Assembly (NCBI RefSeq): GCF_001006305.1
Contig: NZ_LBHJ01000003.1
Coordinates: forward strand, 310,001-374,000
Length of the DNA: 64,000 bases
Origin: Silvibacterium bohemicum
Lineage (GTDB): Bacteria; Acidobacteriota; Terriglobia; Terriglobales; Acidobacteriaceae
Direction of reading: 5' to 3'
Of this stretch, positions 6,490 through 49,310 are shown in pieces. The notes beneath the pieces were generated by a model, which was not told where the DNA came from, made no database searches, and worked only from the letters and a program-made list of their open reading frames with translations. Each line of letters starts with the position of its first letter. The first letter of the stretch is position 1. Made by a program: the position numbers and the translations under genes.

Positions 6490-6492
6490 TCC

Positions 6493-32917: not shown

Positions 32918-32964
32918 GCCAACGATTCTTCGGCCTCCTTGTATTGCCTGAGTGGCCCGATCGT

Positions 32965-33024: not shown

Positions 33025-33642
33025 GTTACAAAACGCATTAGCTCGTGTTGGTTTGTGTCGAGCAGCACACCATAGATGCCATTGCATCGGTTTGAACCAT
33101 CGGGGCTCATCAATACACGTGGAGATGCACGACTTCGGCCGCTCACGCAAGCGTTTTCTGTAGGAAACACGCGGCTCCCGTGCCTTGACACGACGTTGAA
33201 CGCATAGTCTTCTCATGAGAGCGGCGTGCGATGGAAAAAGCATCTCCCATCCTCTCGCGTGCGTCCAATTCACGTCGCAGTTGTAAGTCCAATTGCCCGC
33301 AAAGGAAACGTGCCCATGAGAGTTACACGTGTTTCCCATCATTGTGCCGATAGGAAGCTGTTCAACCTCTTCGCCGATGGAACTCCGGTATAGCTTCATC
33401 TGGTGTGTTGAGCGAACAACTCGTCGAAGTCCTGCTTCCTGGTTTAGCGTCTGAATCAAGACGTGGCGGCGAAGAAGTTCGAAACCATTACAAGCACCAC
33501 TAAAAAGAACTGCGCCCGGTTGCCTTGCGATCTCGAGAGCGCAGGCACAACGCGAGTCGACCAAGGTCGCGGCCGCTGACAGCTTTGCAATTCTGTACGT
33601 CTCATGAAGATTTTGCTGATCTTGCGGCTTGAGGAATGACCT
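33025..33642. other. Gap without a supportable gene
   Basis: A long minus-strand frame (ending at 32914, overlapping the exporter start by four bases) is open across this stretch and beyond, but it also runs antisense through the AraC gene and through the palindrome array, and has no recognisable family. I therefore treat the ~620 bases as non-coding or degenerate. Confidence 0.4.
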
Positions 33643-34125
33643 GTGGCCAGATCCGTCCTTAGAAAACTCTCGACCGTCGAGGGAGAAGTGATCGCAAAGA
33701 TACGAACATGGAGATCGTCGGTCGACGACGAGTTCCATCAAGAACTCCTCCGGTACCCTGCGCGTGTCATGCAGCATTTCATTCTGCTCCACCATGGCCA
33801 TGTGAAAATGCACTTTCGCCCGATCGCGAGAGAGCTTGGAGTTGAGATGCGAACTCTTGAGCGCACTTTTATCGAAGAGTTCGGCAAGAGTATGTTCCAA
33901 TGCCAGGTCGATGCGCGCCTTGCATTTGCTCAAACTCTGCTTCGCTGGATGCCTCCTCCAAAGATCAGTGTGGTCGCGAATATGCTTGGCTACGATGAGC
34001 CGCGTGACTTCCATCACTTCTTCGAAAAGCACACGGGTGAGACTCCATCTGCGTGGGGACGCAAGGAGCGCGAGAAGGCTAAGCGCGACGTCCGCCTTGC
34101 TGCCGGTAGCGAAGAACTCTTCTAG
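33643..34125 (+). CDS. AraC-type HTH protein (DNA-binding domain only)
   Basis: A 160-residue protein whose second half (about 55-145) is an AraC/XylS double HTH: PIARELGVEMRTLERTFIEEFG for the first HTH, SVVANMLGYDEPRDFHHFFEKHTGETPSAWG for the second. The N-terminal ~50 residues are too short for a cupin-type sensor domain, so the ligand-binding part is missing or supplied in trans. A GTG start at 33643 has GAGG upstream. Its place between the divergent exporter and the lasso operon makes it the likely local regulator of both. Confidence 0.78.
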   Translation: MARSVLRKLSTVEGEVIAKIRTWRSSVDDEFHQELLRYPARVMQHFILLHHGHVKMHFRPIARELGVEMRTLERTFIEEFGKSMFQCQVDARLAFAQTLLRWMPPPKISVVANMLGYDEPRDFHHFFEKHTGETPSAWGRKEREKAKRDVRLAAGSEELF

Positions 34126-34181
34126 CATCTAGGTCACTCTAACGCTGCTCTCGAAAAAGCGAACAGCGAAGGCGACACTTT

Positions 34182-34456: not shown

Positions 34457-34714
34457 ATGCTTACCATTACGCCAAATTTGCGATCAGTAGTCGATCACGA
34501 CGGTGCTGTGATTCTGGATATTCCTAACAACGCCATGACAACCCTTAATTCCACGGGAGCGTATGTCTGGGAGCGGCTCGAACGAGGCATGACGCTCACT
34601 GCCATCGTTGCCGAACTGGCAAGCGAAACCGGCACTGATGAGGCCGTCGTTGCCAAAGACGTGGACGCATTTATGGAAGAACTGAAGTCCAAACAGCTCC
34701 TCGCCGCCTTTTAG
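34457..34714 (+). CDS. Lasso B1: PqqD-like leader-recognition protein (RRE)
   Basis: An 85-residue PqqD-fold protein: LTITPNLRSVVDHDGAVILDI, then MTTLNSTGAYVWERLERGMT and the winged-helix end VVAKDVDAFMEELKSKQLL. In lasso systems the free-standing B1 binds the precursor leader and delivers it to the B2 protease. I chose the ATG at 34457 (GGAG nine bases upstream), which gives the standard length; an upstream TTG at 34418 would add 13 residues. It is the first biosynthetic gene of the operon, 28 bases before the phosphotransferase gene. Confidence 0.88.
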   Translation: MLTITPNLRSVVDHDGAVILDIPNNAMTTLNSTGAYVWERLERGMTLTAIVAELASETGTDEAVVAKDVDAFMEELKSKQLLAAF

Positions 34715-34742
34715 GCCTATCTGCTGGAGTTCGGAGCCTCAT

Positions 34743-36098
34743 ATGGCCGACCACATGGAATACCGATTGGCGCTGCTTCTTCCCGAATCCCGTCAGGTGC
34801 TTGGGTTCCAGGGTTTCGGCGCGGATGAACTGCCTCGAATCAGTATCCCAAGGTGGGAACGGCCAGCAGAGCAACTGACAAAACTCGTTGAGGAGATGTG
34901 GCATGTCAAATCCGTAGTGCTCGACGTCCTCATAGACGCCTCTTCCCCGACTCCCTTCGCGATTATGGAGGTAAGAAAGCGATCCAGCGAACTTGAACGT
35001 GGAGGCCTTAGGCCGGTTCAACCTGATGATATTAGTAATGCATCACTCGGAGAGAAGGAACGCCACGCCGTCGCTTCCATTCTGTCGAACAACGCTGACG
35101 ATCGAGGTCCATTCGCCCGTATTGGATGGGTTGGAGAGGTTCAGGAGTGGATTCAGAGGGAAGTTCATTCCCGAGACATTCGTTTCAGCGAAGACATTCT
35201 CCAATTCAACGCTGGTGGTGGGTTCTCGCTCGTTCGTTTTGACACGCAGCAGGGGTCAGCATATTGGCTGAAGGCCGTGGGGAACCCAAACGAACACGAG
35301 TTTCGCGTCACGACGACACTCGCCACGTTATTCAAAAGTTATCTGCCGCCCATAGTGGCGGTACGGCCGGAGTGGAACGCCTGGGTTATGGAAGATGCGG
35401 GGCAACCGCTCTCGAATTCCTTCGACTTGCCATCGGTTGAGAAGGCGGTGACTTGCCTCGCCGAACTCCAGGGCAAGAGCGTCGACTGCATCGAAACACT
35501 TCTTGCAGCCGGCTGTCCGGACTGCAGTATTCCAGTCCTTGCAGACCATCTTAGAGCCCTCACAGAGTATCTCGGGGATGCCATGAACCGGCAGACTTCA
35601 ACCAAAGCACCCCGCCTTGAAATCCAGCGGCTGCGCGAACTCGAATCTATCGTTCGAGACGCGTGTCTTGCGATGCAGGACCTCCGTGTTCCGGACGCTT
35701 TGATCCATAACGATATCAATGGGGGGAATATTCTGCTTTGCGGTTCACGTTGCGTCTTCACCGATTGGGCTGAGGCGTGCATTGGAAATCCATTTCTCAC
35801 CTTTCAACACCTGTGCGCGCAGGTTTCGCTTGATTCAAGAGACGCAGAGGCGTGGCTTCCTTGTGTAAGGAGCGCATACAAAAGATCCTGGCGTGAGTGG
35901 CTCACCGAATCGCAAATCGACCAAGCCTTCGTGCTGATGCCGATCCTGGCCATTGCTTCCTATTTGTATGGAAGAGGAGCGTGGCTGAACTCTCCCATCC
36001 GAGAGACTCCACATTTCCAGAGCTACAGTCGTAGTCTCGCCCGGCATATGGACCGCGCGGCGCGCGCTCCCGAGCTACTGGAGGCATTATGCCGGTAG
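34743..36098 (+). CDS. APH-fold phosphotransferase in the lasso operon
   Basis: A 451-residue two-domain protein. Residues about 180-440 form an aminoglycoside-phosphotransferase-like kinase: hinge VRPEWNAWVMEDAGQ, catalytic loop ALIHNDINGGNILL (His322-Asp324) and FTDWAEA. The N-terminal ~175 residues are a separate domain with LPRISIPRW. Known lasso kinases are of the HPr-kinase type, so this would be a different enzyme class. Candidate roles are phosphorylating the peptide or inactivating a toxin. Its paralogue lies at 24206-25630. The gene overlaps the downstream prolyl oligopeptidase gene by 10 bases, so it belongs to the operon. Confidence 0.75.
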   Translation: MADHMEYRLALLLPESRQVLGFQGFGADELPRISIPRWERPAEQLTKLVEEMWHVKSVVLDVLIDASSPTPFAIMEVRKRSSELERGGLRPVQPDDISNASLGEKERHAVASILSNNADDRGPFARIGWVGEVQEWIQREVHSRDIRFSEDILQFNAGGGFSLVRFDTQQGSAYWLKAVGNPNEHEFRVTTTLATLFKSYLPPIVAVRPEWNAWVMEDAGQPLSNSFDLPSVEKAVTCLAELQGKSVDCIETLLAAGCPDCSIPVLADHLRALTEYLGDAMNRQTSTKAPRLEIQRLRELESIVRDACLAMQDLRVPDALIHNDINGGNILLCGSRCVFTDWAEACIGNPFLTFQHLCAQVSLDSRDAEAWLPCVRSAYKRSWREWLTESQIDQAFVLMPILAIASYLYGRGAWLNSPIRETPHFQSYSRSLARHMDRAARAPELLEALCR

Positions 36099-38125
36099 CC
36101 AGCTGCAGACCTGCCGCCATTACCGAGGTCCTCCACGGCGAAACAGTGATCGATCCATATCGCTGGCTAGAAGACCGCAGCCACCCTGAAACAGATCGCT
36201 GGATCCGTGAACAACAGAGGTTCTGCGATGACTATTTCGCGGCCTGTTCCGGCCTCGAGACGTTCCGGACCCGCGTACGCAACTACCTGGATGTCGAGGT
36301 GGTCGATCAGCCCTCTAGGGTAGACGGCCGCTATTTCTATCGCCGCAGGAATCGAGGCGAGGAGCAGGGCTCCATCTATGTCCGTGACATCGCCACGGGC
36401 AGGGAACGTCTCCTTGTCGATCCGTCCAATCAAGGACCGTTTACGTCTGTGTCCATTTATCGAATCTCTGCCGCCGGATCACTCCTCGCTTATGAGCTTA
36501 GGCGGGGCGGGGAAGACAAGACCGCTCTGTGCGTTGTGGACGTGAAGAGCGGGCAGACATTACACGATGAGCGTGAGGTCGGATACGAGAGAGGGTTTGC
36601 CTTTCGCCCGCATGAGGATGGGTTCTATTTCTGCCGAGAAACCCGGACAGGCGCGGAGGAACACACCATACGGTTTCACCTTTTTCGCCAACCTGGCAGC
36701 GGCCGGATTGTGTTTCGCGTACCTCGGACCGAGGAAAGCCGGCTGATTCTTATCGCGGATGCTGTCCATCTCGGCGCCATCTGGCTTCACAGGAGTGACT
36801 CGGGCATTGTCACCGACTTTTTCATTGCGCCTTTGAGCGATGAGCCCCAATGGATTAAGCTGCTTTCTGAGAAGACGCCGGAACATCATCCTTTCATACA
36901 TCAGGGGCGAATCTTCGTTTGGAAAAATGCGGAAGACGGCGGCTCCGCCGTGACCGAGCTAACCCGGAATGGGTTGGAGTTGCGGACGATCATTCCAAAG
37001 CAACGCTCTGTCATCCGTCAGCTCGCGATCGCGAAAGAAAGGATCTACGCGAATCAATTTGAGGGTGGAATCCCAAGCATTTCCTGCTGGACTTTGAGTG
37101 GAGAGCCCCTTGGAGTCATCGATGCTCCAAAAGACGGATCGATCTCACTGTTGGCGAGCTATAGCCAGCACGAGAGCAATGTCTTTTACACGTATGAATC
37201 TTTCGATCAGCCACTCACCATCTTTGAATATGCCGCAGATGTAAAGCGCTCCCAGATATGGCATCAACGGATCTCGACACCCGTCCAAACACGCGCCAAG
37301 ACTTGTCGCACATCTTTTCAATCAAGGGATAGCGCGAGGATTCCACTCACCCTTGTGTTACCTGATGATAGTTCCCAAGGCCGGCCGAGGCCCGCAATCC
37401 TGACCAGCTACGGAGGATTTGGCGCTCCGATGACTCCCCAGTTTTCTGTTCTAGCCACCATTATGAGGGAACTTGGAGCGGTACTCGCAATCGCTCACAT
37501 CAGGGGCGGCGGCGAATTCGGCAAACCCTGGCATGAGGCGGGTCGAAGACAAAACCGGCAGAACGGAATTGACGACTTCATCGCGGCGGCTGAGTGGTTA
37601 TGCGTACACGGAATCACGGCTCCAAAGCGCCTCGCGATCTTCGGTGGATCAAATGCCGGCCTCTTGGTAGCTGCTGCGATGACACAGCGTCCCGACATCT
37701 TCGGAGCGGTTCTTTGCATTGCGCCGCTCCTGGACATGGTGCGTTATGAACATTTCGATTTGGCCCGCAGATGGAAGGACGAATACGGTACGGTCGAGAA
37801 TGAGGGCGATTTCCGTGCGCTCTACGCCTATTCTCCGTACCATCGCGTGGAAAAGAATGTCGATTATCCGCCCATCATGTTTGTTTCAGGAGACAAAGAT
37901 GATCGCTGTAATCCCGCACATGTGCGGAAGATGGCAGCACGTCTGCAATCCCTTCCTTCGCAGAGATCGCCGGTTATCGTCGACTACAGCGAAGAACGGG
38001 GTCACATGCCTGAGTTGCCTCTATCCATCCGTGTCGAAGCTCTTGCGCGGAGGATCGCCTTTTTGTGTAAAGAACTCGGAGTTTCTCAGGCCGAAGGGGT
38101 CGATTATGAAGAAGTATGTAATTGA
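36089..38125 (+). CDS. Prolyl oligopeptidase-family (S9A) serine protease
   Basis: A 678-residue soluble enzyme without a signal peptide. The N-terminal region (ITEVLHGETVIDPYRWLED) and beta-propeller (to about 400) precede an alpha/beta-hydrolase domain with catalytic Ser521 in GGSNAGLL, Asp in GDKDDRCNP and His in RGHMPEL, ending soon after as usual. S9 enzymes include the lasso isopeptidases AtxE2 and SphE1, but this sequence looks like classical POP. It might trim the tail or degrade linear peptides and leader. It overlaps the kinase gene by 10 bases and the B2 gene by 20, so it is firmly embedded in the biosynthetic operon. Confidence 0.88.
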   Translation: MPVASCRPAAITEVLHGETVIDPYRWLEDRSHPETDRWIREQQRFCDDYFAACSGLETFRTRVRNYLDVEVVDQPSRVDGRYFYRRRNRGEEQGSIYVRDIATGRERLLVDPSNQGPFTSVSIYRISAAGSLLAYELRRGGEDKTALCVVDVKSGQTLHDEREVGYERGFAFRPHEDGFYFCRETRTGAEEHTIRFHLFRQPGSGRIVFRVPRTEESRLILIADAVHLGAIWLHRSDSGIVTDFFIAPLSDEPQWIKLLSEKTPEHHPFIHQGRIFVWKNAEDGGSAVTELTRNGLELRTIIPKQRSVIRQLAIAKERIYANQFEGGIPSISCWTLSGEPLGVIDAPKDGSISLLASYSQHESNVFYTYESFDQPLTIFEYAADVKRSQIWHQRISTPVQTRAKTCRTSFQSRDSARIPLTLVLPDDSSQGRPRPAILTSYGGFGAPMTPQFSVLATIMRELGAVLAIAHIRGGGEFGKPWHEAGRRQNRQNGIDDFIAAAEWLCVHGITAPKRLAIFGGSNAGLLVAAAMTQRPDIFGAVLCIAPLLDMVRYEHFDLARRWKDEYGTVENEGDFRALYAYSPYHRVEKNVDYPPIMFVSGDKDDRCNPAHVRKMAARLQSLPSQRSPVIVDYSEERGHMPELPLSIRVEALARRIAFLCKELGVSQAEGVDYEEVCN

Positions 38126-38483
38126 GAGCTGTTTGATCCTGCTCTATCTCGAATTCGTTATGCGAATTCACGGGCTCAAACGACTGCATGAAATTGTTCG
38201 GCAGCACTCGGTTATCTCCATGCAGTCGGCGACTGGTCCTTCCAGCGAATTGTTGTGCCGCGCCGCGGATTATGCGTGCGTGCTCTATTTCAAGCAGGTG
38301 TTGTGCCTCCAGCGATCCTGCGCGACCACCTTACTATTGCGTCGCTACGGTTGGGGCGCCCAGATGGTCATCGGTGCGCAAATTATTCCGTTCGAATCTC
38401 ATGCGTGGGTCGAGGTCGGCGGTATCGTCGTCAACGATAAGCCCTACATGCTCGACATTTACCAGGTCCTGGAGCGCTGCTGA
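38106..38483 (+). CDS. Lasso B2: transglutaminase-like leader peptidase
   Basis: A 125-residue lasso B2 protein. The predicted triad is Cys72 (LQRSCATTLLLRRYG), His99 (FESHAWVEVGG) and Asp111 (VVNDKPYMLDIY). B2 cleaves the precursor leader before position 1 of the core after B1 delivers it. Length is normal for split B proteins. The start at 38106 lies 20 bases inside the upstream gene, and the cyclase starts 17 bases after the stop. Confidence 0.9.
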   Translation: MKKYVIESCLILLYLEFVMRIHGLKRLHEIVRQHSVISMQSATGPSSELLCRAADYACVLYFKQVLCLQRSCATTLLLRRYGWGAQMVIGAQIIPFESHAWVEVGGIVVNDKPYMLDIYQVLERC

Positions 38484-38500
38484 ACACGTGAGGCATAGGA

Positions 38501-40339
38501 ATGAGCATTCTCTTTGGAATTCGTCAAGCTGAAGAACAGGCTGTCGAGGAGCCTCGGTTGCGCCGTATCGCATCTGCGACCGAACGCTACGCTCTCGATG
38601 GCACCTATCTCAAGGCGAGCGGTAGGATCGGGATGGGGTTCCAACCATACCACACGCATGAAAGATCGAATCTCGAGTCCCAACCCGTAGTCAGCCGGCG
38701 CGGGGACATGCTTACGTTCGACGGGCGTCTCGACAACTATATCGACCTGTGTCACTCACTCTGTCTGGACCCTGAGCGTACTCCGGATTCGCTGATTGTT
38801 ATTGAGGCGTTCTTGCAGTGGGGTGAGGACTGCTTCTCCCGATTCGTTGGCGACTGGGCATTGGCCCTGTGGGCGCATGCAGAGCGTTCTCTCTATCTGG
38901 CGCGCGACCACGCTGGAACCAGGACACTGTATTACGAAATGGCAAACGGTCGGGTGCTCTGGTCAACCTATCTCGAATCACTTGTTCCGAAGAACAGTGC
39001 GCGGGGCTTAGATGAGGCATTTGCCGCCGCTTTCCTATCGTCACTTCCGATCCGTGATCTCACTCCGTACAGAGGCGTTCGCGCCGTATCACCAGCACAC
39101 TATGTGATTATTCATGAAGGAGCCATTGCAAGAAAGTCACATTGGCAATGGATGGTGCGGGAGAAGGTCCACTATAGGTCCGACACCGAATATGACGAGC
39201 ACTTCTTCTCGTTGTTTAGGCAATCGGTGGAACGGCGAACAGGGTCGGGTGCGGCAATCTTGGCTGAACTCAGTGGCGGTATGGACTCGAGCTCCATCGT
39301 CTGTATGTCGGACCACATTCGGAAGGAGCAAGGCGCTGCGCCCGTGGACCTCCTCGACACCGTTTCCTACTACGACGATTCCGAGCCCAACTGGAACGAG
39401 ACGCCCTACTTTACCGCCGTAGAGCAGGGAAGAGGCAAATGCGGCCTGCATATCAAAGCCTCGTCTCACAGCCGCACGTTCGAGCCACCAGCGCCTGAAT
39501 ATCTTTGGCCTGGCCCAGAAGCTAGCACGTTTGACGCGGAGAGAAGACTGGAGGATCAACTTCGCTGCAGGCGTTATCGCGTAGTCCTGTCAGGCATAGG
39601 TGGTGATGAACTCTTAGGAGGACCACCCAACCCAGTACCTGAGCTTGCCGATTATCTCGTTTCAGGGGAATTCCAAAAACTCATCCACCAAGCTTTCAGG
39701 TGGTGCGTGGCAAAAAGGGTTCCTCTCATCCATCTTCTGCGTGACACGGCATCCATGGTCTTTACGCTATACCCGCGATTACCTCGATCTTCCCCAAATG
39801 TGCCACCCTGGCTCACCGCAAGCATTCGCAAGGAAGTCTTGGGCCTTCGGCTTCATGATTTTTCCCGCGTTACAATCGGTCACCTTCCTTCTTCCCTCGA
39901 CAATGGGATGACGTGGTGGTCGATCATGGAAACACTGGTTCGTCCTTCTCAGAGGATCATTGGTCGTCGCGAATATCGATATCCGTTCTTGGACCGTGAC
40001 CTAGTGGACTTTCTACTCCGCGTTCCAGCGAACCAGCTTATGTGTCCCGGCCGAAGGCGCTTGCTGATGCGCAGGGCCCTTCGCGGCATTATCCCATCTC
40101 ACGTCTTAGAACGTAAGAGAAAGGCCTATGTATCGCGGAGCCCGCTGGTTGTGCTTTACGAGAATAAGCCTCGCCTGATGACTCTCATGCACGACTCCAA
40201 ACTGAACAGGCTTCACTATATCGAAGAAGATGCCTTGAGAACTGCAGTCGCCGCGTTTGACGCTCCGCCCAATGCCGAATGGCAGTATTCGCTGATAAGA
40301 GCGATTCACCTCGAACTCTGGTTGAGGGCGATTGGGTGA
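38501..40339 (+). CDS. Lasso C: asparagine-synthetase-like macrolactam cyclase
   Basis: A 612-residue AsnB-like enzyme. The N-terminal ~200 residues resemble the glutamine amidotransferase domain (SRRGDMLTFDGRLDNY, FVGDWALALW), but residue 2 is Ser, not the catalytic Cys, as in other lasso cyclases that do not use glutamine. The synthetase domain has the pyrophosphatase loop LSGGMDSSS (from Ser258) and GIGGDELLGG. The enzyme adenylates the side-chain carboxylate of the ring residue (here predicted Asp9) and forms the amide with the Gly1 amine around the threaded tail. Good AGG-type ribosome-binding site upstream. Confidence 0.92.
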   Translation: MSILFGIRQAEEQAVEEPRLRRIASATERYALDGTYLKASGRIGMGFQPYHTHERSNLESQPVVSRRGDMLTFDGRLDNYIDLCHSLCLDPERTPDSLIVIEAFLQWGEDCFSRFVGDWALALWAHAERSLYLARDHAGTRTLYYEMANGRVLWSTYLESLVPKNSARGLDEAFAAAFLSSLPIRDLTPYRGVRAVSPAHYVIIHEGAIARKSHWQWMVREKVHYRSDTEYDEHFFSLFRQSVERRTGSGAAILAELSGGMDSSSIVCMSDHIRKEQGAAPVDLLDTVSYYDDSEPNWNETPYFTAVEQGRGKCGLHIKASSHSRTFEPPAPEYLWPGPEASTFDAERRLEDQLRCRRYRVVLSGIGGDELLGGPPNPVPELADYLVSGEFQKLIHQAFRWCVAKRVPLIHLLRDTASMVFTLYPRLPRSSPNVPPWLTASIRKEVLGLRLHDFSRVTIGHLPSSLDNGMTWWSIMETLVRPSQRIIGRREYRYPFLDRDLVDFLLRVPANQLMCPGRRRLLMRRALRGIIPSHVLERKRKAYVSRSPLVVLYENKPRLMTLMHDSKLNRLHYIEEDALRTAVAAFDAPPNAEWQYSLIRAIHLELWLRAIG

Positions 40340-40359
40340 GAAGCACATGTATAGAAGTT

Positions 40360-40382
40360 TTAGCCCTCGACATTGGGGCTAA
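40360..40382 (+). promoter_or_regulatory. Hairpin between cyclase and precursor genes
   Basis: Inverted repeat TTAGCCC (40360-40366) and GGGCTAA (40376-40382) with a 9-base loop. No T-run follows, so it is not a terminator. It may be an RNA-processing or stability element that raises precursor mRNA relative to enzyme mRNA. Confidence 0.35.
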
Positions 40383-40454
40383 CAAGGATCCGCGCGATGG
40401 CAAACCGCAAAAGGGGCGATCTGAGCGTGGAAATTCAGCAACAAAGAGGTCGAT

Positions 40455-40589
40455 ATGAAATACACTGCACCAGCAGTACTGAACACAGTCAACGCAACCG
40501 CCCTGATCCAGGGCACCAAGAACGGCATGCGCCGAGACAGCGACTTGATAGATCCGTCGCCTGTAGCCGGATACGGTGCTGACGAATAG
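40455..40589 (+). CDS. Lasso precursor peptide A (44 residues)
   Basis: A small gene with GAGG upstream of its ATG, 115 bases after the cyclase and 11 before a strong terminator. The peptide starts MKYTAPAVLNTVNATALIQ. Aligning Tyr3 and Pro6 with the canonical leader (Tyr -17, Pro -14, Thr -2) places Ile18 at -2 and Gly20 at core position 1. Counting from Gly20, residue 9 of the core is Asp28, giving a predicted Gly1-Asp9 nine-member ring and a 16-residue tail that ends GYGADE. Core length 25 is within the family range. The usual Thr at -2 is replaced by Ile, which makes the exact cleavage site inferred rather than certain. Confidence 0.8.
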   Translation: MKYTAPAVLNTVNATALIQGTKNGMRRDSDLIDPSPVAGYGADE

Positions 40590-40600
40590 TACGGCAATTT

Positions 40601-40652
40601 GGCTCGGAAGATGGAGTACTTCCGCTCCATCTCCCGAGCCGATTTTGATTTG
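40601..40652 (+). terminator. Rho-independent terminator of the lasso operon
   Basis: Long two-part stem: GGCTCGG (40601-40607) with CCGAGCC (40634-40640), and inside it AGATGGAG (40609-40616) with CTCCATCT (40625-40632), 8-base loop, followed by GATTTTGATTTG. It starts 11 bases after the precursor stop codon and ends close to the stop of the convergent isopeptidase gene. Confidence 0.85.
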
Positions 40653-40660: not shown

Positions 40661-43018
40661 TCAATCGTGCTTCCCAAGCAAACTGTCCGATGGAGCATTT
40701 GAACGAGACCACTGCTGCCAACGTCTATATTCCGCCCTCTTTGCAGGGTCGGGGTCTTCATAGCCTTGGAGCCAGAAGCGAAACCAATCGACGTTTCCTT
40801 GCTGGGACGCATATCGTTCGTTCGGTTTTTGTAATATATGCTGCCCGGTGGGGATGTAAATGAGGTCAACAGGTTTTGCTTCCTGATACAGGGAAGAATA
40901 TGTCTCCCACTCCCCCAGAATGGAGATTGGGCCAATGGCTTCGATACGGACAGGTGCTTGAATTTTATCAAGATTGAAGCCGGCGGCATTCTTGACCCAG
41001 CTCCCAAGCCCTACTCCAAAGGGTTTGCCTCCATTGGCGGCTTCCTCTTCAACAGCACCTTCGGGATCGCCTGGCGCGAAGAGCATATAGGTCATATAGC
41101 TTTGGTCAATCCCATCAATGAGGGTTGCGGCGCGAAAGCGGCGTGGCATATGGATCAGCGCTTCCTCAACGTACCAGGCTGCGCGGCTGAAACCAATGAT
41201 GCCAACACGGGATGGATCGATTAGGCCACTCTTATCGAGGTAGTCGATGGCGGATTCAAACCCATCTACGGTCAAGAGGGCTTCCTGTTGCGCTGGCCGG
41301 ATGTGTCGATCTGCTCGATCTTCCATTTGAAGTACGATGATTCCGGCGGCGGCGAACGCTCGTGCAGCGAAGCCAGTGGTGAATGACCCATCTATCAGAA
41401 ACTCGTGCTCGTTGTAGAAGCCGTGGGTTTGGATCACAAGAGGGTAGCGATGTCCCAGCACGAAATTAGGGGGCAGGACCAGCCCCGCGTGCCACTCGTA
41501 GCCGGTGCTGTCTTTCCAGCTATAGACCGACTCCTGCCCAAGCTCTAGGGACGCCAGTTGCGGGTTCGGATCCCACAATTCCTTCGATAAACTTGTCTTT
41601 GGCCCGGCTACCCAGAGCGTGGGCGGTTCGTTAATATCCTGCCGAATGAAGATCCTCAAGGTTGGTTGTGCTTCATTCGTAGTTACTTTCTGCGCCTGTA
41701 ACGTCCATGCCTGCTGAGTCTTTACATAAGACTGAGTTTCCTCCTTGCCCTCGCTGGACCACTGAAGGACGACTTCATTCGACGAGAGGCCGAAGACCGC
41801 GGAGCGCAGTGAGTCGCTTTCTTTGGGGAACCGCGCATATGCGATGCAACTGGCAGACTTGGACACGACCCTGTAGACGGCGGCGGCGCACGCCGAAATG
41901 CCTCTCACATTCGGTGTTCCCGAACCCTTCGGAAATGGGAAATAGCTGTTGGTAAACAATACAGCTCGGCTGTCTGGCGACCATACGGCCTGCAGAGCGT
42001 CAATATAACCCTCAAGAAAACCCGATGGCGCATCGACGATTGGAGTAACCGTCATTTTGTCAAGGTCGACATAAATGTATTGCCACGGCCAGTTGAAGCT
42101 TTTCCCGGACCGATCCGTGCCTGTGTGAGCCGGAGCAAAACTGGAAGTGCTGTCGGCAGTCTCGTACTTGAGCCACACTGCCGGAATATCTGGCACGGGC
42201 CGGGCGGCAATCAGTGCTCTTCCGTTGGGCGACACGGCAATTCGCAACCCGGCGGCTGAACTTGGAAAATGCCATTTGCCGCCGGCGTTCACCTCTCGAT
42301 TCACACCTCTGTAGCGAACCCAGAGATCAAGGGCGGGCCAAAAGGAGGAGGGGTCGGGAAACGTCTTAGGGAAGAAAATATGAAACAGAGATAGACCGGT
42401 CAGGTCCGAAGACGCGTCGTTGATCGGCTTACCGATCACCTTGGGTGGAGACACGTGTTCGACGACGAGGTAGGCAATGGTTCCACCACCCTCGCTGAAA
42501 TCTTTGATGTCTACGTTGTTCCCGGGGGTCAGGTCGATGGAAGCCCTTCCGGACAAGTAGGTGCGGAAGAGATGATGGTATCCATTTGCCTGCTCGACCA
42601 AGGCCAAGATGAACTGGGAATCGCTCGACCATTGTGCCTTGGTGATGAGCGAGCCGTAGGAATTGTTCTGTTGCGCTACAGGACTCCCCGCCCTCCTAAA
42701 TAGGAGTTGGGGTCTCGGAGGGTGATCGTTCTGTTCGTGGAGATACCTGTCTATGCCGGTTGCCGAATACACCCACAAAGTCGATTCCAAGTGATTCGTG
42801 CGAAGCACTCCTCTTGTCGTGATCACAAAGAAGTGCTTGCCGTCAGGCGATCTCTTGCACTCGGCATCAGGGAGGCGGGTGTACGGATCGCTGAATGTGG
42901 TCATTTCGACGGAATCTTTCACTGTGAACGGTCGCCGCCCATCAGCAAACAGCCCTGAGCTACAGCAGACAACGATCAACATAAAGAGGACGACAATACG
43001 TCCCATGCAGTTCATCAT
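40661..43018 (-). CDS. AtxE2-like lasso-peptide isopeptidase (S9)
   Basis: A 785-residue S9-family protein. N-terminal hydrophobic signal (IVVLFMLIVVCCSSGLF) suggests export to the periplasm. A beta-propeller region follows, and the hydrolase domain has the nucleophile motif IIGFSRAAW, a His in TGQHIL and the end FWLQGYEDPDPAKRAEYRRW, the tail typical of lasso isopeptidases. Known family members open the ring-closing amide of the cognate lasso peptide, giving a linear product. It is the last gene of the sigma-fusion/TonB-receptor/isopeptidase operon and converges with the biosynthetic operon, whose terminator separates them. Confidence 0.85.
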   Translation of the reverse strand: MMNCMGRIVVLFMLIVVCCSSGLFADGRRPFTVKDSVEMTTFSDPYTRLPDAECKRSPDGKHFFVITTRGVLRTNHLESTLWVYSATGIDRYLHEQNDHPPRPQLLFRRAGSPVAQQNNSYGSLITKAQWSSDSQFILALVEQANGYHHLFRTYLSGRASIDLTPGNNVDIKDFSEGGGTIAYLVVEHVSPPKVIGKPINDASSDLTGLSLFHIFFPKTFPDPSSFWPALDLWVRYRGVNREVNAGGKWHFPSSAAGLRIAVSPNGRALIAARPVPDIPAVWLKYETADSTSSFAPAHTGTDRSGKSFNWPWQYIYVDLDKMTVTPIVDAPSGFLEGYIDALQAVWSPDSRAVLFTNSYFPFPKGSGTPNVRGISACAAAVYRVVSKSASCIAYARFPKESDSLRSAVFGLSSNEVVLQWSSEGKEETQSYVKTQQAWTLQAQKVTTNEAQPTLRIFIRQDINEPPTLWVAGPKTSLSKELWDPNPQLASLELGQESVYSWKDSTGYEWHAGLVLPPNFVLGHRYPLVIQTHGFYNEHEFLIDGSFTTGFAARAFAAAGIIVLQMEDRADRHIRPAQQEALLTVDGFESAIDYLDKSGLIDPSRVGIIGFSRAAWYVEEALIHMPRRFRAATLIDGIDQSYMTYMLFAPGDPEGAVEEEAANGGKPFGVGLGSWVKNAAGFNLDKIQAPVRIEAIGPISILGEWETYSSLYQEAKPVDLIYIPTGQHILQKPNERYASQQGNVDWFRFWLQGYEDPDPAKRAEYRRWQQWSRSNAPSDSLLGKHD

Positions 43019-43077
43019 TGAAAACTCCGAAACGCATGAAGAAAAAAAGTTGTGGAAGCGAGGCCGTTCCCACTCAA

Positions 43078-46000
43078 TCAGAATTGAAGTCTTAATGACA
43101 TCTGCATCGATCGCGGCCCGCCTTGCTGATAAAGCGGACTTAGGGTGCCGAGGCTTTCATTCAGTGTTTGGGTCGCCTGGCCGAATTGAACCCCGCCGTA
43201 ATAAGGATAGATATATCCAAAATCTGGATGATTCAGGATGTTGAACATCTCAGCTCGGAATTGGAGATTCAACCGATCGACTATGGGAAACGACCGCCGA
43301 ACCGCCAGGTCCAATTGATTCATCCCGAACCCACGCACAAAGTTTCGCGGCGCGTTTCCATAGGCGTTGCTTGGTGGCACTGCAAAGGCCGCAGGATTGA
43401 TTTGCCGATTTCCTGGGATCCCTTGGACATGAAGATACACAGGAACATTGGGAACCAAATTCAGACCCTGATAGGCTGACTGTCCATTGGGAAGCGTAAT
43501 CTGGTTCCCGTCAAGGATAACCGGGAATGCACCTCTCGCCGTGAGGCGAGTATCGAGTGACCAATGGTGTGTAAGCGTGCCGATCAGCGCGCCAGAATGA
43601 GTCGTAGGGAAGTCGTAGGTCGCTGCCAGATTGAAATTGTTGCGCAGATCATAATCCGAGTTGCCACGGATCTGCGCAAAATCCGTGTCCTGTGAACCAA
43701 AGTCTATGGAGTGTGCCCAGTTATACGACCCGAGCACTTGCAGCCCCCGACTGAGCGTTCGTTGAAACTTGACCTGTAAGGCGTTGTAGCTGGAGGTGGT
43801 CCCAGACGTCTCTTGTACGATACCGTATGAGCTAAAGTCTCCGGTGGCCGGAGAAATATCCTGCTGTGATAATAACCGCCTGCCGTTGCTTCCAACGTAG
43901 GATATGGTGAGCGTCTGAGACCTGCCAAGCGCCTGCTCTACACTTACATTCCATTGCAATGTATACGGAAGTTGCAGTCTTGTTGGGAAGTAATATGCCT
44001 GTGCGTTGTATGGAGCAATAGGCGGGTTGGCGATAGATAGATTAACTTGCGCTGGGGCGAGTGGATAGCTGGAACCAAAGTATAGCCCTTCTGAGTTTTG
44101 TCCCACGCTATTGCCGAACGCCTGAGTTGAAGTCTGTTGTCCAGAATCGAAGAACACACCGCCGCCTGCCCTCAAGACGGTTTCTCGACCGGGCTCTTGA
44201 TGAGCTATGTAAGCGATGCCGAGGCGTGGCGCAAAGTTGTAGTAGGTGGTCTTCCAAAAACGGGTGCCCGTTGGCGCTAGGTTAAGACTTGATGGGTCTC
44301 CGAGATTCCCCTGCACGATGTAAGGCAACGCCTGAGATGTCGAAGAGGGAGGCGGATTCACCTCCCATCGCAACCCCAATGAGAGATTGAGTCGATGGCT
44401 CGCCTTCACTTCATCTTGGATGTATATCGCGAAATTGCTATATGCCGGATAACTCGTCGAAGTAACATCGACAATGCCAGCTTCAGATATGTTGGCAAGA
44501 ACACCGGTATCGCTGTCGAATATGGAGGTGACATTTGGCGACGACGGCGCAAGTCGCGATGAAATCCTCCGAAAAGTGGCACCGACTTTTAGTGTTTGAC
44601 GTCCATAGGAAATACTTGTGCTGTCGTTGACATTCGATGCGTGCTGAGGCTGAGTAGCGCGATCCTGCGTCAAAGCTTCATCATAGCCAGCAAAATATAG
44701 ACCGAATCCAGCGGATGCGTCTGGATGTGTTGCAGCATCTATACCCTGTAGCTGTAAGAAAGTTACGGGCGTGGCACCGCCAAAGCTGTCGAAGGCCGAA
44801 GAGCTACTGCCCGTGCTGGCCGTGTAATTGATGCGAAAGTCGTTGGCGATCTTCTCCGACAGCTCGGAGGTGATTCCTAAGGTGTTCGTGTAGTTGCTTT
44901 GGCGTGTGGTGTCAATTTCCGAGAGGCCATTGTCGTAGCGTGACTCTGTAGCGCTTTGGGTGTCACTGAAGCGGAAAAACAGTTTGATCTTTGACGTGAG
45001 TTGTTGATCAAATCTAATGCTCGTGGAATTGAGACTGCTTGGTAGCGAATATGCCTCAGCAAATGGCGCTAATCCGTTAGGAAGTGCGGTTCCAGTCGGC
45101 ACCGGGAAGGCGTTAAGCAGCGGCTGGAGTATGGCTGGGGCGGCTTGCCGGAGTGACATCGACGGAACATAGGTCGTTAGTGCCGCCTGGGGCTCTGTGA
45201 GGCGAAGCCCTTCATAAGAGAAGAAAATGAAGGACTTATTTTTCCCATCGTAGAGCTTGGGAATCCGAACCGGTCCACCAAGGGTTCCCCCAAAATCATT
45301 CTGCCGTTCCGCGGTCTTTCGAGTGATCGGTGTTGTGGTGTCATTGAACCAATTGTTGGCATCGAGTGCGTCATTACGCAGGTAATCGAATAATGTTCCA
45401 TGCACATCATTTGTGCCAGAGCGGGTCTCGAAGGCAAGTTGACCTCCCGGAGACAGTCCGTATTCTGCGGAATAACTTGAACTTTGAACACGAAACTCTT
45501 GAAGATCATCGACGGATACAAGGCTTTGGGTTGTGCCCAGCGCGGTCGCCGCAGCAACCGATCCGCTCGTACCGGCTGATGCCCGGCCATCGATGTACCC
45601 GCTCGTATTGGCATTCACCCCGTCGACCGTGTACGCGTTTGATTCTGTACGCTGCCCATTAACGCTGAATTCTCCTGCGACTCCTACGCTGCTAGACGTC
45701 TGCGGACTGGTGGTAGTCACTCCCGGTGTGAGCTGGATCAGGTCCTGGAAGCTACGGCCATTTAGCGGCATGTTCGCGACGAAGTTGCGATCAACCACCG
45801 TGCTCACTGAGCCATCTGTAGTGTTGATGGTCAGGCCGCTGCCGTCGACAGTAATGCTTTGTTGAGCGGAACCCACCTTCAGGATGAGTTGCAGGTGCTT
45901 ATCATCGCCGACATTGAGGGTGATGTTGTCGATGGCGATGTCCGCGAAGGATTGCTTCGAGACAAAAAGAGCGTAGTGGCTTGGTTTAAGAAAAGAGAAA

Positions 46001-46227
46001 CTTGTGCTTCCAGATTTCCCGCTCGTAGAGCGCTGTTCCTGGTTTGTGTCGGTATTCCGGATAACTACCGATGCATCGGGGATGACGGCTCCTGTGGTAT
46101 CCGTGATACTGACCGTGAGACTTGCAGAACTAGCTTGAGCTAAGACGGTCGGTTGCTGTCCGAGAGAAAACAGCGCAACAAACATCCAGAGAAAATACTT
46201 AGAAAGAAGCGTCTTAAATCGGGGCAT
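43078..46227 (-). CDS. Oar-like TonB-dependent receptor
   Basis: A 1049-residue outer-membrane receptor. After a signal peptide (MPRFKTLLSKYFLWMFVALF.. VLAQA) comes a carboxypeptidase-regulatory-like beta-sandwich (about 32-120: SLTVSITDTTGAVIPDASV), a plug domain (MPLNGRSFQDLIQLTPGV, NAYTVDGVNANTSGY), and a large beta-barrel ending in the outer-membrane signature MSLRLQF. I chose the ATG at 46227 because GAGGAG precedes it. In proteobacterial lasso clusters a TonB receptor next to the isopeptidase is thought to import the lasso peptide or its metal complex; the same role is inferred here. Confidence 0.92.
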   Translation of the reverse strand: MPRFKTLLSKYFLWMFVALFSLGQQPTVLAQASSASLTVSITDTTGAVIPDASVVIRNTDTNQEQRSTSGKSGSTSFSFLKPSHYALFVSKQSFADIAIDNITLNVGDDKHLQLILKVGSAQQSITVDGSGLTINTTDGSVSTVVDRNFVANMPLNGRSFQDLIQLTPGVTTTSPQTSSSVGVAGEFSVNGQRTESNAYTVDGVNANTSGYIDGRASAGTSGSVAAATALGTTQSLVSVDDLQEFRVQSSSYSAEYGLSPGGQLAFETRSGTNDVHGTLFDYLRNDALDANNWFNDTTTPITRKTAERQNDFGGTLGGPVRIPKLYDGKNKSFIFFSYEGLRLTEPQAALTTYVPSMSLRQAAPAILQPLLNAFPVPTGTALPNGLAPFAEAYSLPSSLNSTSIRFDQQLTSKIKLFFRFSDTQSATESRYDNGLSEIDTTRQSNYTNTLGITSELSEKIANDFRINYTASTGSSSSAFDSFGGATPVTFLQLQGIDAATHPDASAGFGLYFAGYDEALTQDRATQPQHASNVNDSTSISYGRQTLKVGATFRRISSRLAPSSPNVTSIFDSDTGVLANISEAGIVDVTSTSYPAYSNFAIYIQDEVKASHRLNLSLGLRWEVNPPPSSTSQALPYIVQGNLGDPSSLNLAPTGTRFWKTTYYNFAPRLGIAYIAHQEPGRETVLRAGGGVFFDSGQQTSTQAFGNSVGQNSEGLYFGSSYPLAPAQVNLSIANPPIAPYNAQAYYFPTRLQLPYTLQWNVSVEQALGRSQTLTISYVGSNGRRLLSQQDISPATGDFSSYGIVQETSGTTSSYNALQVKFQRTLSRGLQVLGSYNWAHSIDFGSQDTDFAQIRGNSDYDLRNNFNLAATYDFPTTHSGALIGTLTHHWSLDTRLTARGAFPVILDGNQITLPNGQSAYQGLNLVPNVPVYLHVQGIPGNRQINPAAFAVPPSNAYGNAPRNFVRGFGMNQLDLAVRRSFPIVDRLNLQFRAEMFNILNHPDFGYIYPYYGGVQFGQATQTLNESLGTLSPLYQQGGPRSMQMSLRLQF

Positions 46228-46277
46228 AGGTCTCCTCTGGCTCAACTGAGCCATGAAATCGATAGACATCGTGTTTC

Positions 46278-49200
46278 TTACTCGGTTCGGCCAGCCTGCC
46301 TGAAGGCCTGGAGGCGCTCGATAGTACTGTCGAGCCGGCTCTCCTGAACCCGTAGATCGGCAAGAAGCTGCTCGATTAGATCTGGGTTGTGATTTGCGGG
46401 GAGACTTGAAGGGGACAGTGTGAGATCTACCGTGAGTAGACGATCCAGCTGCTCACTGTTCAGGTTTAGAGTCTGAGTCGCGACCCGGAGGTCGGCGACC
46501 GTTTGGATGGCTGGATCGGTAGGAAGTTCTGAAGCCGGCGATCGCGCACTCTGATCCTTGAACAGGGGCGCTAGGCTGCTATCCAGAGAAGACAATTCTT
46601 GGCTGAATGCGCGAATATGTTTGCCCAACAGGGTGAGCCACAACATCCGCTCGTCAGGCTGCATCGACGTGAGTTCGCCTGTGGTGAAATCGGTCGCAAC
46701 GATTTGATGAATGCTCCATGCTTCTCTATGCAATAACGAGCAGTATCTAAGCGAGTCATTCGCGATGTCTCGAATCCGGCCGTTAAGGTCAGAGTCTGGT
46801 ACGCCGGATGAGGAAAGGGATGTGCGGAGGTCGGAATCGAGCGGAATTCGTTGATCTTCAATCGAGATTGCATGGAGTGATTCGACGACTGGTTCTTTGT
46901 GCGGTGGCCCCGGCGCGGCGGATTCATCGCCGGAATGGAGATCAACTCGGAATTCATGGTTAAAGCGTAGTGGGGCAAAGACGCTCTCAACTGCCTCCTT
47001 TTGTGCCCTCGTCTCAAAGACTCCATTGACGGAAGTGCCCCCGTCGGGCATCCGCTCTACGTTGACTACCCGCTCAACTTCCGGGCCGAGATTGTTAAGT
47101 AGCAGGAGGACCTCGAGGGTAAGATGGGCATCCGAACGCCCGTTAGCGGAATCGCGTGGGACTCTGGCCGTAAGATCCTCAGGTTCGACCGTTGGTGTGA
47201 AGTCGCGCTCCAATTGTGGACTCGCAGGCAGGAGTTCGTACGTCAGCTCTTCGAATCGATACTCCCGAGTCTGATGATGGTCTTGAATGGTGAATCTTTC
47301 TTTGACAGGTCGCCTTGTGTCCGAGGTGAGAGTCAGGTCCGCAGCGATAACCGTTGGCTGCTCCGATGTGGCAGTGTTCACGTATGAGATCTCGTAGCCG
47401 CTGGCTTCTTGGTGCGCCGTGAGCTTCGCCGCAGTGGCGGTTAGTGCTTCGAAGTCGTCCGCTTCGGGAAGGTGTATCCAAGCTGCATCAACGGTATCTT
47501 TCGGGGACTTGGTTGGGGAATGGACGCGATGTTTAGCCGAGTAGTCGGTTGCCTTACCGTCTTGGTTGACCCAATGTCCTGCGACGAGCTTCCCGGCGCG
47601 ATCGTGAAACTGCAAAGCTCGCCGCGACGGAGCCCTGCCACGCAGGCTGTCAACCGTTCCACTCTCCACTATCTGCCCTTGCCCTGAACGGACTTCAAAG
47701 GCAAACGTGCGATGCATCGCCCCATCAGAAGGGATGGCGGCGTTTTCGCGATCCAGCGAGTCATCGAGCAACGTGGTGGCCGACACCGGAGCGGCGGTCT
47801 TCCTCGTATGGGAATAATGAAGCAAGATTCCGAATCCCAGCAGCACAGCTCCTGTTGCGAGAGCAACGGGAAACGACATCGACCAATTGCGGTGGGCCAG
47901 CCAAGAGAGGAATCTCCTCCATGTAGGTAACTTCGTCCTGTCGCGCTGGATTCTCCCAATAGCGTGGAATTCGACTTCTGGGAGCGTGGGATTATCCGTC
48001 GTGAACACTTCGCCTGCTGCCTCCTCTGCTGGCAAATCCTGGTAAGAGACGTTCACCACGGGTGCGCCACCGCTCCAGGTCATTTCAGCAGTCAAGTTTC
48101 GGCCGTCGCTCAACTCCACATAGGCCCGTTGAAGGCTGGCTCCGTCGAGGTCTTCTTCAAGGAGATCGAGGTAGAGAAGCGGGATTCCTTGCTCACTGAA
48201 TACCTCCACGAACTCGGGCCGGCCAACAGAGTCAAGATTGTTGAGCTGGAATTCGTTGAACTCCCCATTCACAACAGTCGTTCCGAGTACTTGGCCGTTG
48301 ACGGCAACTTGCAGCTGCGTTGGGCGGTGCTCAAATGTCTCCCGTTCCTTCCGCCGTAGTCGTGGTCGCCTCCGCTCCGTAATGCTGCCCGTGCTGGGAG
48401 GATCGTTGTCGTCGTGCTCGCCTTCGTCGGAGGAGAAATGCATGTCGAGGCTCGGAATTCCCAGAATTTCATTCGCGGTATCGAGGCATGTCCTGCAGCT
48501 CACGAGGTGCGCCAGTTCGGTTGTGCTCAGAGGGCGCTCTGATTCGTCGTCGTATCTTATGGAGATCTCTTCCTTTGACAGGCATACGCCCTCGGCTCTG
48601 GAAAGGATGCGCTCGCGCAGTTCGGCCTTGAGCTCTGCCGGATCGTCGGGCAGATTTTCTTTCTGTGGTCGTGAGGTTTCCATTCGCTTTTCGCGCCCGC
48701 TCAAGCCTTTGGACTCCGAGCGTTGCTCTCGTTCTCCTTGGTTCAGGAAATGGAGAACTCCGGGACGAGTAACGTAGGCTTTCGCTTCTTGTCGAGCGAT
48801 ATGTGTCAGCTTATCTACCGCGGCGCGGTCCGCTCTGAGGAGCTGCGCGATCTCACTGGGGTAGTAGCCAAAGAAGAACCGCAGGATCAGGACACTTCCC
48901 GCCTTGTGTGTCATGCGTCTAGTGCACGCATACTCACAGATCTTGGTCAGCTGGCTGCGCACCAGGAGAAGCTTGCTTCCATCCACTGCCGAAAGGGCGA
49001 TTTGGACCGAATCAAAGTCGCTGATCTCAAGGTTAGAGACTGCGTCGCGCCCGTTGCGGCGAGTTTTTGAGATGAACAGGTTTTTGAGGGTTCTATATAG
49101 GTAAGCACGAATCCGGTCAGCATCGCCCATTTGCAGGGTCGATCGCGACTGCACAAACCTTACATACAGGTCCTGAACCAGATCCTCAGCCTCCTCCCTC

Positions 49201-49310
49201 GAACCGTGGTACAGATCGCGGGCGTTCTTTAGGAGCCAACCATAGTGATCGAGAAAGATCTCTTCGAGATCCTGAGACTTCTCGATCTTTGGTGTTCGCA
49301 TCGGGCCCAC
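46278..49310 (-). CDS. Single-chain sigma factor / zinc anti-sigma / membrane sensor fusion
   Basis: A 1010-residue protein with an unusual order. Residues 15-85 match sigma region 2 (HYGWLLKNARDLYHGSREEAEDLVQDLYVRF, shortened; then RIRAYLYRTLKNLFISKTRR); residues 138-180 match region 4 (VLILRFFFGYYPSEIAQLLR). Residues 268-275 are HLVSCRTC, the H-x3-C-x2-C zinc anti-sigma motif. An extra beta-rich domain (about 328-425) is followed by one span (about 477-499) and a ~510-residue outer domain ending in coiled-coil-like helices. So transcription factor, inhibitor and sensor are one chain; release would need proteolysis. GTG start has AAAGGAG upstream. It heads the operon with the TonB receptor 50 bases downstream, a FecI-FecR-like logic. 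Confidence 0.8.
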   Translation of the reverse strand: MGPMRTPKIEKSQDLEEIFLDHYGWLLKNARDLYHGSREEAEDLVQDLYVRFVQSRSTLQMGDADRIRAYLYRTLKNLFISKTRRNGRDAVSNLEISDFDSVQIALSAVDGSKLLLVRSQLTKICEYACTRRMTHKAGSVLILRFFFGYYPSEIAQLLRADRAAVDKLTHIARQEAKAYVTRPGVLHFLNQGEREQRSESKGLSGREKRMETSRPQKENLPDDPAELKAELRERILSRAEGVCLSKEEISIRYDDESERPLSTTELAHLVSCRTCLDTANEILGIPSLDMHFSSDEGEHDDNDPPSTGSITERRRPRLRRKERETFEHRPTQLQVAVNGQVLGTTVVNGEFNEFQLNNLDSVGRPEFVEVFSEQGIPLLYLDLLEEDLDGASLQRAYVELSDGRNLTAEMTWSGGAPVVNVSYQDLPAEEAAGEVFTTDNPTLPEVEFHAIGRIQRDRTKLPTWRRFLSWLAHRNWSMSFPVALATGAVLLGFGILLHYSHTRKTAAPVSATTLLDDSLDRENAAIPSDGAMHRTFAFEVRSGQGQIVESGTVDSLRGRAPSRRALQFHDRAGKLVAGHWVNQDGKATDYSAKHRVHSPTKSPKDTVDAAWIHLPEADDFEALTATAAKLTAHQEASGYEISYVNTATSEQPTVIAADLTLTSDTRRPVKERFTIQDHHQTREYRFEELTYELLPASPQLERDFTPTVEPEDLTARVPRDSANGRSDAHLTLEVLLLLNNLGPEVERVVNVERMPDGGTSVNGVFETRAQKEAVESVFAPLRFNHEFRVDLHSGDESAAPGPPHKEPVVESLHAISIEDQRIPLDSDLRTSLSSSGVPDSDLNGRIRDIANDSLRYCSLLHREAWSIHQIVATDFTTGELTSMQPDERMLWLTLLGKHIRAFSQELSSLDSSLAPLFKDQSARSPASELPTDPAIQTVADLRVATQTLNLNSEQLDRLLTVDLTLSPSSLPANHNPDLIEQLLADLRVQESRLDSTIERLQAFRQAGRTE

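Follow-up and report, generated by a model that had tools for sequence, protein, structure and literature searches.

A putative recapture operon facing a lasso-peptide biosynthetic operon in Silvibacterium bohemicum and other Acidobacteriaceae

The described systems closest to the locus analyzed here are the alphaproteobacterial AtxE2/BenE lasso-peptide clusters (astexin, benenodin), which carry an isopeptidase of the S9 fold. The gene order of isopeptidase-type lasso loci is nearly constant, and both their function and the purpose of their peptides are treated as open questions in a review (PMC9266682). In the present analysis, a 64,000-nucleotide stretch of the Silvibacterium bohemicum genome (6.46 Mb, 25 contigs; assembly GCF_001006305.1, contig NZ_LBHJ01000003.1, positions 310,001 to 374,000; hereafter the window) was found to carry three minus-strand genes (40661-49310) coding for an S9 peptidase, a TonB-dependent receptor, and a sigma-factor fusion protein that face a plus-strand lasso operon (34457-40589). 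Gene content and conservation show a facing pair of operons that stays together across the family, one for making the peptide and the other coding for a regulator, a receptor, and an isopeptidase relative, and the minus-strand operon probably serves to recapture the lasso peptide. An initial annotation, made from the sequence alone, had proposed this opposed arrangement; the three genes were intact open frames at the coordinates it claimed, and the genes that they face were those of the lasso operon.

In alphaproteobacterial plasmid loci, the order of receptor, isopeptidase, and facing lasso cyclase (C) was found in 8/8 cases, with genes for a sigma factor and FecR before the receptor in 6/8. 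This order is kept in the acidobacterial loci although the receptor and regulator families differ, which is the strongest argument that receptor, regulator, and isopeptidase work jointly on the peptide. That the order recurs in another phylum, with other receptor and regulator families, speaks for a single working unit of these three proteins. Compared with the AtxE2/BenE clusters, the window isopeptidase has the S9 fold in common but belongs to another branch, the receptor is of the Oar type with no STN domain found, the regulator falls outside the FecI/FecR type, the B1 and B2 proteins are separate, and the precursor gene follows C. The window locus also has genes for a kinase, a prolyl oligopeptidase, and an ATP-binding cassette (ABC) exporter, and an AraC-type gene precedes B1, whereas GntR is usual in AtxE2/BenE clusters (no GntR search was made here). 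Rubrinodin is a published case that combines an exporter with an isopeptidase (PMC9266682). The available text on acidobacterial lasso clusters describes no facing uptake operon (PMC10368454; PMC9064862). In one of these, biosynthetic gene cluster (BGC) 482.1, B1 and B2 flank a gene that is labelled kinase and carries the annotation aminoglycoside phosphotransferase, and two A genes follow C. Gene 16, which lies past the A genes and is 2118 bp long, codes for a hypothetical protein (PMC9064862) that is possibly the isopeptidase, a guess from its size and place. The locus is a variant of isopeptidase-type lasso systems, and at least one similar-looking cluster was sequenced earlier (PMC9064862). 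A literature search, thin on subscription journals, found no description of acidobacterial isopeptidase loci or of the fusion regulator.

The pairing recurs within the genome and across the family. A profile search gave three B2 matches in the S. bohemicum genome, where two further facing pairs are located at C12:782k (L041) and C13:175k (L042; L numbers denote loci and G numbers genomes). The top three of its 36 isopeptidase-model matches were the S9 genes facing its three lasso clusters, so the pairing is beyond chance. A B2 profile search of 200 family genomes identified 73 match rows in 58 genomes, and the surroundings of 72 were analyzed, leaving out the weak match G511:C252. Loci were counted when C scored >500 with a custom profile, giving 38 loci, two of which (L045 and L050) had been reached only through the isopeptidase search; the 34 loci with at least 6 kb beyond C were evaluable (L088, L105, L109, and L125 were shorter). 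The counts exclude loci with other C types and the lasso clusters L107 and L146, whose C frames are shortened or split. Each profile drew on 3-11 of the same loci, and seeds score high by construction. A facing Oar receptor was present in 32/34 evaluable loci and an S9 gene next to C in 31/34; the S9 gene fell on the isopeptidase side of a 72-row tree in 27/34. Without L045 and L050, these values were 30/32, 29/32, and 25/32, respectively.

The peptidase (40661..43018, minus strand, 785 amino acids) is, as judged from profiles, trees, and predicted fold, a relative of the lasso isopeptidases. Its Protein Data Bank (PDB) sequence matches were AtxE2 (4.5e-30) and the sphingopyxin I isopeptidase SpI-IsoP (3.5e-15), the next match reaching 0.0016. 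An AlphaFold model (mean predicted local distance difference test, pLDDT, 83) placed AtxE2 and SpI-IsoP first among known structures (Z 31.3-31.6, with 31.5 for SpI-IsoP, 5jrk/5jrl), followed by another S9 enzyme at Z 26.3. Plasmid records with relatives of the peptidase bore alphaproteobacterial genus names in 20/20 cases, and in 12 of the 20 the gene carried the annotation 'Atxe2 family lasso peptide isopeptidase'. In the 72-row tree, 27 lasso-linked enzymes together with alphaproteobacterial AtxE2 proteins split from generic S9 proteins of the S. bohemicum genome and its phylum (99% support in the Shimodaira-Hasegawa-like approximate likelihood ratio test, SH-aLRT, the only support computed in these quick searches). 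A 70-row tree with named proteobacteria separated 58 isopeptidase-side rows from 12 generic rows (100% SH-aLRT). The window peptidase therefore groups with isopeptidases and not with general S9 enzymes. The isopeptidase side comprised an AtxE2 branch of 15 rows (100%), a second branch of 40 rows (100%) that includes the window enzyme, and a trio. The second branch also contains enzymes of Roseateles, Pelomonas, Piscinibacter, Woeseiaceae, Emcibacter, Novosphingobium, and other proteobacteria, most of them encoded next to regulators of the FecI/FecR type and to receptors that match the alphaproteobacterial profile. The C-terminal fragment of SpI-IsoP scored similarly with both branch profiles (130 vs. 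140 bits) and may belong to either. The AtxE2-like character given to the enzyme in the initial annotation is thus upheld as a relationship by trees, fold, and co-occurrence, while the enzyme is not a standard AtxE2, belonging to the other branch and being changed at the Glu610 position. The facing S9 genes are also not uniform, as those of L112 (on a long branch) and L276 belong to the AtxE2 branch in the 70-row tree and those of L095, L096, L108, and L139 fall with generic S9 proteins.

The active site combines conserved and displaced residues. The AtxE2 triad, which we take to be Ser527, His638, and Glu610 (the Ser and His numbers fit the AtxE2 chain numbering in the PDB match), corresponds in the window enzyme to Ser611, His727, and Ser699, and a glutamate, Glu705, lies in a column six residues past that of Glu610. 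Ser and His were kept in 40/40 second-branch and 15/15 AtxE2-branch rows of the alignment. The Glu610 column held 14 Glu and 1 Asp in the 15 AtxE2-branch rows, the Glu705 column was acidic in 38/40 second-branch and 10/15 AtxE2-branch rows, and generic S9 rows had the usual Asp. SpI-IsoP, compared through the C-terminal fragment of its PDB sequence match, showed a gap at the Glu610 column and Glu at the Glu705 column. From this alignment, Glu705 is the candidate catalytic acid of the window enzyme. Published text gives the isopeptidase triad as 'Ser-His-Glu/Asp' (PMC9266682).

The receptor (43078..46269, minus strand, 1063 amino acids) matched OMP_b-brl_4 (435 bits), CarboxypepD_reg, and Plug, the domain combination of Oar-type receptors, and the assignment in the initial annotation to the Oar type was borne out. 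In a 78-receptor tree under a plain model, 30 of the 32 lasso-linked receptors (L045 and L127 left out) fell in a single 40-row clade (100%), the remaining 10 rows being receptors that follow a fusion-type regulator. The genome's other Oar receptors, represented by the 30 best-scoring, were all outside this clade, and the window receptor is assigned to a lasso-linked subfamily. No STN domain was found in scans of the window receptor (E 0.001) and the L042 receptor (E 0.01); STN was found on 3/3 alphaproteobacterial receptors scanned, two of them over the Pfam cut-off.

The third gene (46278..49310, minus strand, 1010 amino acids) is predicted to code for a membrane-tethered extracytoplasmic function (ECF) sigma factor with an anti-sigma motif and an extracytoplasmic sensor-like domain. 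Its N-terminal part matched Sigma70_r2 and TIGR02937 (sigma2-sigma4, residues about 12-184, 48759..49277). It is followed on the same strand by an HxxSCxxC motif like that of zinc anti-sigma (ZAS) proteins (residues 268-275, 48486..48509), whose His, Ser, and both Cys were invariant across 23 aligned fusion proteins, by a membrane helix predicted from the model and the hydrophobic sequence (residues 480-503, 47802..47873), and by a domain resembling LolA, LolB, and RseB in fold matches (residues 507-711, 47178..47792). In the model of the whole chain (mean pLDDT 74, predicted template modeling score 0.46), sigma2-sigma4 is succeeded by a helical region carrying the HxxSCxxC motif and then by a beta domain; the long helix at 480-503 leads on to a domain rich in beta structure, a small domain of mixed type, and finally a coiled coil. 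The stretch 507-711 (pLDDT mostly 78-93, except about 43 for 591-610) matched LolA proteins with Z up to 14.4 and RseB/MucB with Z 11.8-12.1. A BON-like domain at residues 727-793 was hinted at by weak matches in single fusion members.

In the RpoE-RseA-RseB and AlgU-MucA-MucB systems, sigma factor, membrane anti-sigma, and LolA-like periplasmic sensor are three proteins, whereas the window has all three parts in one chain linked to a receptor gene, and the regulator is closer in plan to a one-chain RpoE-RseA-RseB than to FecI/FecR. At E 0.5, the 23 fusion proteins gave matches to 22 families; none of these was FecR, which was detected in the alphaproteobacterial control. The initial annotation had presented the single protein as the counterpart of FecI/FecR; a fused FecI/FecR was rejected because the outer part is LolA/RseB-like and because no FecR match was found in the 23 relatives and no STN match on the two family receptors scanned. 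A one-chain sigma and membrane anti-sigma protein serving an iron-carrier receptor is known in IutY of Pseudomonas putida, which belongs to a siderophore system and is activated by Prc and RseP (PMC5411451); the window fusion differs by its HxxSCxxC motif and LolA/RseB-like domain with no FecR found. The actinobacterial ECF48, ECF52, and ECF53 groups (SCO4117) likewise join a sigma factor to a ZAS-like part and a membrane helix, and the sections available mention no LolA/RseB-like domain (PMC8999054).

A sigma/anti-sigma fusion, as initially annotated, is correct for the window and does not describe the family plan, since among 32 receptor-bearing lasso loci the fusion occurred in seven (7/32) and separate genes for an ECF sigma factor and an RskA/zf-HC2-type anti-sigma in 24 (24/32), and no regulator was found at L046. 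The fusion of L106 spans a contig end, and L120 shows only an anti-sigma gene before the contig ends. Altogether, 28 regulator copies were found and 26 examined (G313:C1 and G488:C192 left out); all 26 lie directly before an Oar receptor (24 fused, two with a separate sigma gene). Away from lasso genes, L183 and L184 have the sigma part as a separate gene. As 19 of the 26 copies lie away from lasso genes, each preceding an Oar receptor, the fusion looks from its genomic distribution like a receptor regulator in general. Some of the seven lasso-locus copies span contig or region ends, and the L171 copy is a fragment at a contig end. The fused protein offers a simple handle on the system, as 26/26 copies precede the receptor they should serve.

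Recapture would proceed in several steps. The peptide would be matured in the cytosol by B1, B2, and C with the kinase and the prolyl oligopeptidase, exported, and bound outside by the dedicated Oar-type receptor for transfer to the periplasm, where the secreted isopeptidase would cut the ring bond, releasing any cargo along with the linear peptide. Peptide or product present in that compartment may be sensed by the LolA/RseB-like domain of the tethered sigma protein, and regulated proteolysis would then free the sigma part and switch on receptor and isopeptidase. The likeliest purpose would be a recyclable signal or carrier, a question that becomes testable in the acidobacteria carrying the system, among them Granulicella, Edaphobacter, Terriglobus, and Acidicapsa. 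The closed life cycle put forward in the initial annotation, with the lasso as a metal carrier or signal, likewise stays at the level of a proposal.

Several observations weigh against this reading, and they bear in part on other roles for the facing genes. The S9 gene might be a general peptidase that stands beside the cluster by accident. Generic-type S9 genes do occupy the peptidase position in the tree at L095, L096, L108, and L139, and with 165 bits the window peptidase missed the cut-off (400) of the curated model NF033523 ('Atxe2 family lasso peptide isopeptidase'), with which the annotated alphaproteobacterial member L151 scored 753 bits. The same model gave 165-175 bits for 5/5 second-branch enzymes scanned and no match over the cut-off in 396 genomes of the phylum; as it misses its own cut-off on this branch, second-branch enzymes may go unnamed or pass as general peptidases. 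The tree places the window gene and those of 26 other loci on the isopeptidase side, the fold and residues of the window gene agree with an isopeptidase, and a general acylaminoacyl peptidase was rejected for it on these grounds; an accidental neighbor is given hardly any weight. The initial annotation had named generic grouping combined with a lack of co-occurrence with lasso genes as the outcome that would count against it, and the window gene showed neither, the generic grouping being seen at the four loci named. An isopeptidase-like fold put to a new task, such as trimming an acidic tail or a modified end instead of opening the ring, would fit the conserved C-terminal tail of the precursors and the loss, in most second-branch rows, of the acid at the AtxE2 Glu610 position. 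This column holds Ser in 17 of the second-branch rows, Asn in 5, Gly in 4, and further residues in the rest, being acidic (Glu or Asp) in 6/40. Such a change of task is nevertheless quite improbable, since Ser, His, and the overall fold are kept and SpI-IsoP, which opens its lasso peptide (PMC9266682), likewise shows Glu at the other column and none at the AtxE2 position. Four loci with a generic S9 gene, together with L087, where a BNR-repeat protein (4867-6669) replaces the peptidase between receptor and C, suggest that the opening step may be replaceable or that the enzyme may serve another substrate. L100 and L110 have a similar precursor and neither a facing receptor nor an S9 gene.

A further explanation is self-protection or turnover, in which the isopeptidase would destroy re-entering peptide and the receptor would be a mere entry or nutrient-scavenging route. 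Control of peptide concentration is a published hypothesis (PMC9266682), the window isopeptidase opens with a hydrophobic signal-like stretch (by plain hydropathy, and unlike the prolyl oligopeptidase), and the genome is rich in Oar-type barrels (70 match stretches, some sharing one gene). For disposal alone, however, a dedicated sigma regulator and a receptor subfamily distinct from the other Oar receptors tested would be costly, and two near-complete genomes keep the uptake module without a B2 match, which suggests that the module may be useful without own production; turnover is therefore held to be unlikely. These are G139 (99% complete, same genus; locus L043) and G422 (97%; L170), both with operons of fusion, receptor, and isopeptidase; no B2 match was found in either or in G568, for which no completeness is stated. 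The L170 enzyme gene is spread over two frames and may be damaged. The genomes of the metagenome-assembled loci L243 and L241, considered as receiver-only, were rejected as such, having three and two B2 matches. Recapture is also weakened by the signal-like N-terminal stretch being present in only 22/29 isopeptidase-side family enzymes (hydropathy >=2.0, starts uncorrected) and by the occurrence of members without lasso genes in the receptor clade, which is therefore not exclusive to lasso loci. Autoregulation gained no backing from a word search ahead of the fusion and split-sigma operons, which gave no clear promoter word (top 6-mers 8 vs. a shuffle maximum of 9, and 10 vs. 9; gapped pairs 4-5 vs. 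3).

The precursor gene (40455..40589, plus strand) codes for 44 amino acids, MKYTAPAVLNTVNATALIQ followed by GTKNGMRRDSDLIDPSPVAGYGADE after a cut presumed by analogy with published precursors (PMC10368454). Its leader has the YxxPx motif as YTAPAV and Ile at position -2, in keeping with the Ile/Val predicted at this leader position for Acidobacteriaceae precursors (PMC10368454). If the core starts at Gly20, the acidic ring residue is Asp9, within the expected core positions 7-9, and a Gly1-Asp9 ring is presumed. By motif search or by eye, precursors were found in 37/38 loci (45 copies), mostly just after C and about 1.5 kb further in L050 and L094. YxxP was kept in 35/37 precursor loci (exceptions L041 and L139), and Ile or Val mostly stood two residues ahead of the presumed cut in sister precursors inspected by eye. 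The cores were highly variable and the ends conserved, 19/45 finishing with AYEADE and many more with close variants.

A Tyr in the last six residues was found in 29/29 loci with an APH-fold kinase vs. 2/7 without (Fisher p 5.6e-5 with a hand-corrected table, 0.0007 uncorrected, values overstated because the loci are related). The table left out L054, for lack of an identified precursor, and L093, whose contig begins within the operon, counted L125 (Tyr sixth from the end) as Tyr-positive, and counted L048 as kinase-negative despite an APH-match gene further upstream. Since lasso kinases of the HPr type phosphorylate a conserved C-terminal Ser (PMC9266682), the tail tyrosine is by analogy the likely target of the APH-fold kinase, and the tail yields a sharp chemical prediction, a modified tyrosine. 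A more specific model, put forward tentatively and itself doubtful, is that the conserved tail, phosphorylated on its tyrosine by the APH-fold kinase, would be the address for a dedicated Oar receptor, that the LolA/RseB-like sensor built into the sigma protein would read the peptide directly in the periplasm, and that some receiver-only relatives would eavesdrop on the peptides of neighboring producers or rob them.

The biosynthetic operon consists, in plus-strand order, of the PqqD-type RiPP recognition element (RRE) protein B1 (34457..34714; PqqD 67 bits), the APH-fold kinase identified by domain scan (34743..36098), an S9A prolyl oligopeptidase (36089..38125), the leader peptidase B2 (38106..38483; B2 model 76 bits), the lasso cyclase C (38501..40339), and last the precursor. 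C matched NF033535 best, with 249 bits, below the model's own cut-off of 525. The prolyl oligopeptidase has no signal-like N-terminus, is closest in the PDB to the prolyl endopeptidase 2bkl (2.7e-102), and occurs in 21/34 evaluable loci; trimming or action as a second leader peptidase is possible. An MsbA-like ABC exporter identified by domain scans (31127..32917, minus strand) has homologues adjoining 12 of the 33 other evaluable clusters. Between the facing operons lies a strong hairpin (40599..40642; the stretch that was folded reached -33 kcal/mol, z -5.4), where the initial annotation had put a terminator; it was not among the results of a formal terminator scan.

Ahead of B1 is an AraC-type helix-turn-helix (HTH) gene (33643-34125, plus strand), and a long minus-strand open reading frame overlying it (32914-34128) is probably spurious. 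A block with TTTGTCGCA was kept ahead of B1 in 4/12 aligned loci (window, L041, L047, and L127), with a variant form in L106. Because this block and the AraC-type gene precede B1, synthesis and recapture may be controlled separately. Words upstream of B1 beat shuffles more clearly than those upstream of the sigma operons and, as far as the word lists go, the two share none.

Isopeptidase-branch genes were also observed elsewhere. In L051 and L052 (G233 and G329) they extend over two frames with no nearby receptor or C match and are decayed orphans. The isopeptidase of L245 (Novosphingobium naphthalenivorans) is nested among acidobacterial ones in the tree but lies beside genes of the FecI/FecR type and a receptor that matches the alphaproteobacterial profile; no C or B2 match was found within 9 kb, B2 matches occur elsewhere in the genome, and from its placement the gene was likely acquired by horizontal transfer. 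Finally, a protein of about 525-590 amino acids lies ahead of B1 in L044 (1460-3040), L049 (14538-16319), L086 (11396-12967), L107 (6033-7604), and L054 (3112-4737). It gave no Pfam match (five scanned) and no NCBIfam match (two scanned), and by eye it resembles an HTH protein with S24/LexA-like parts.

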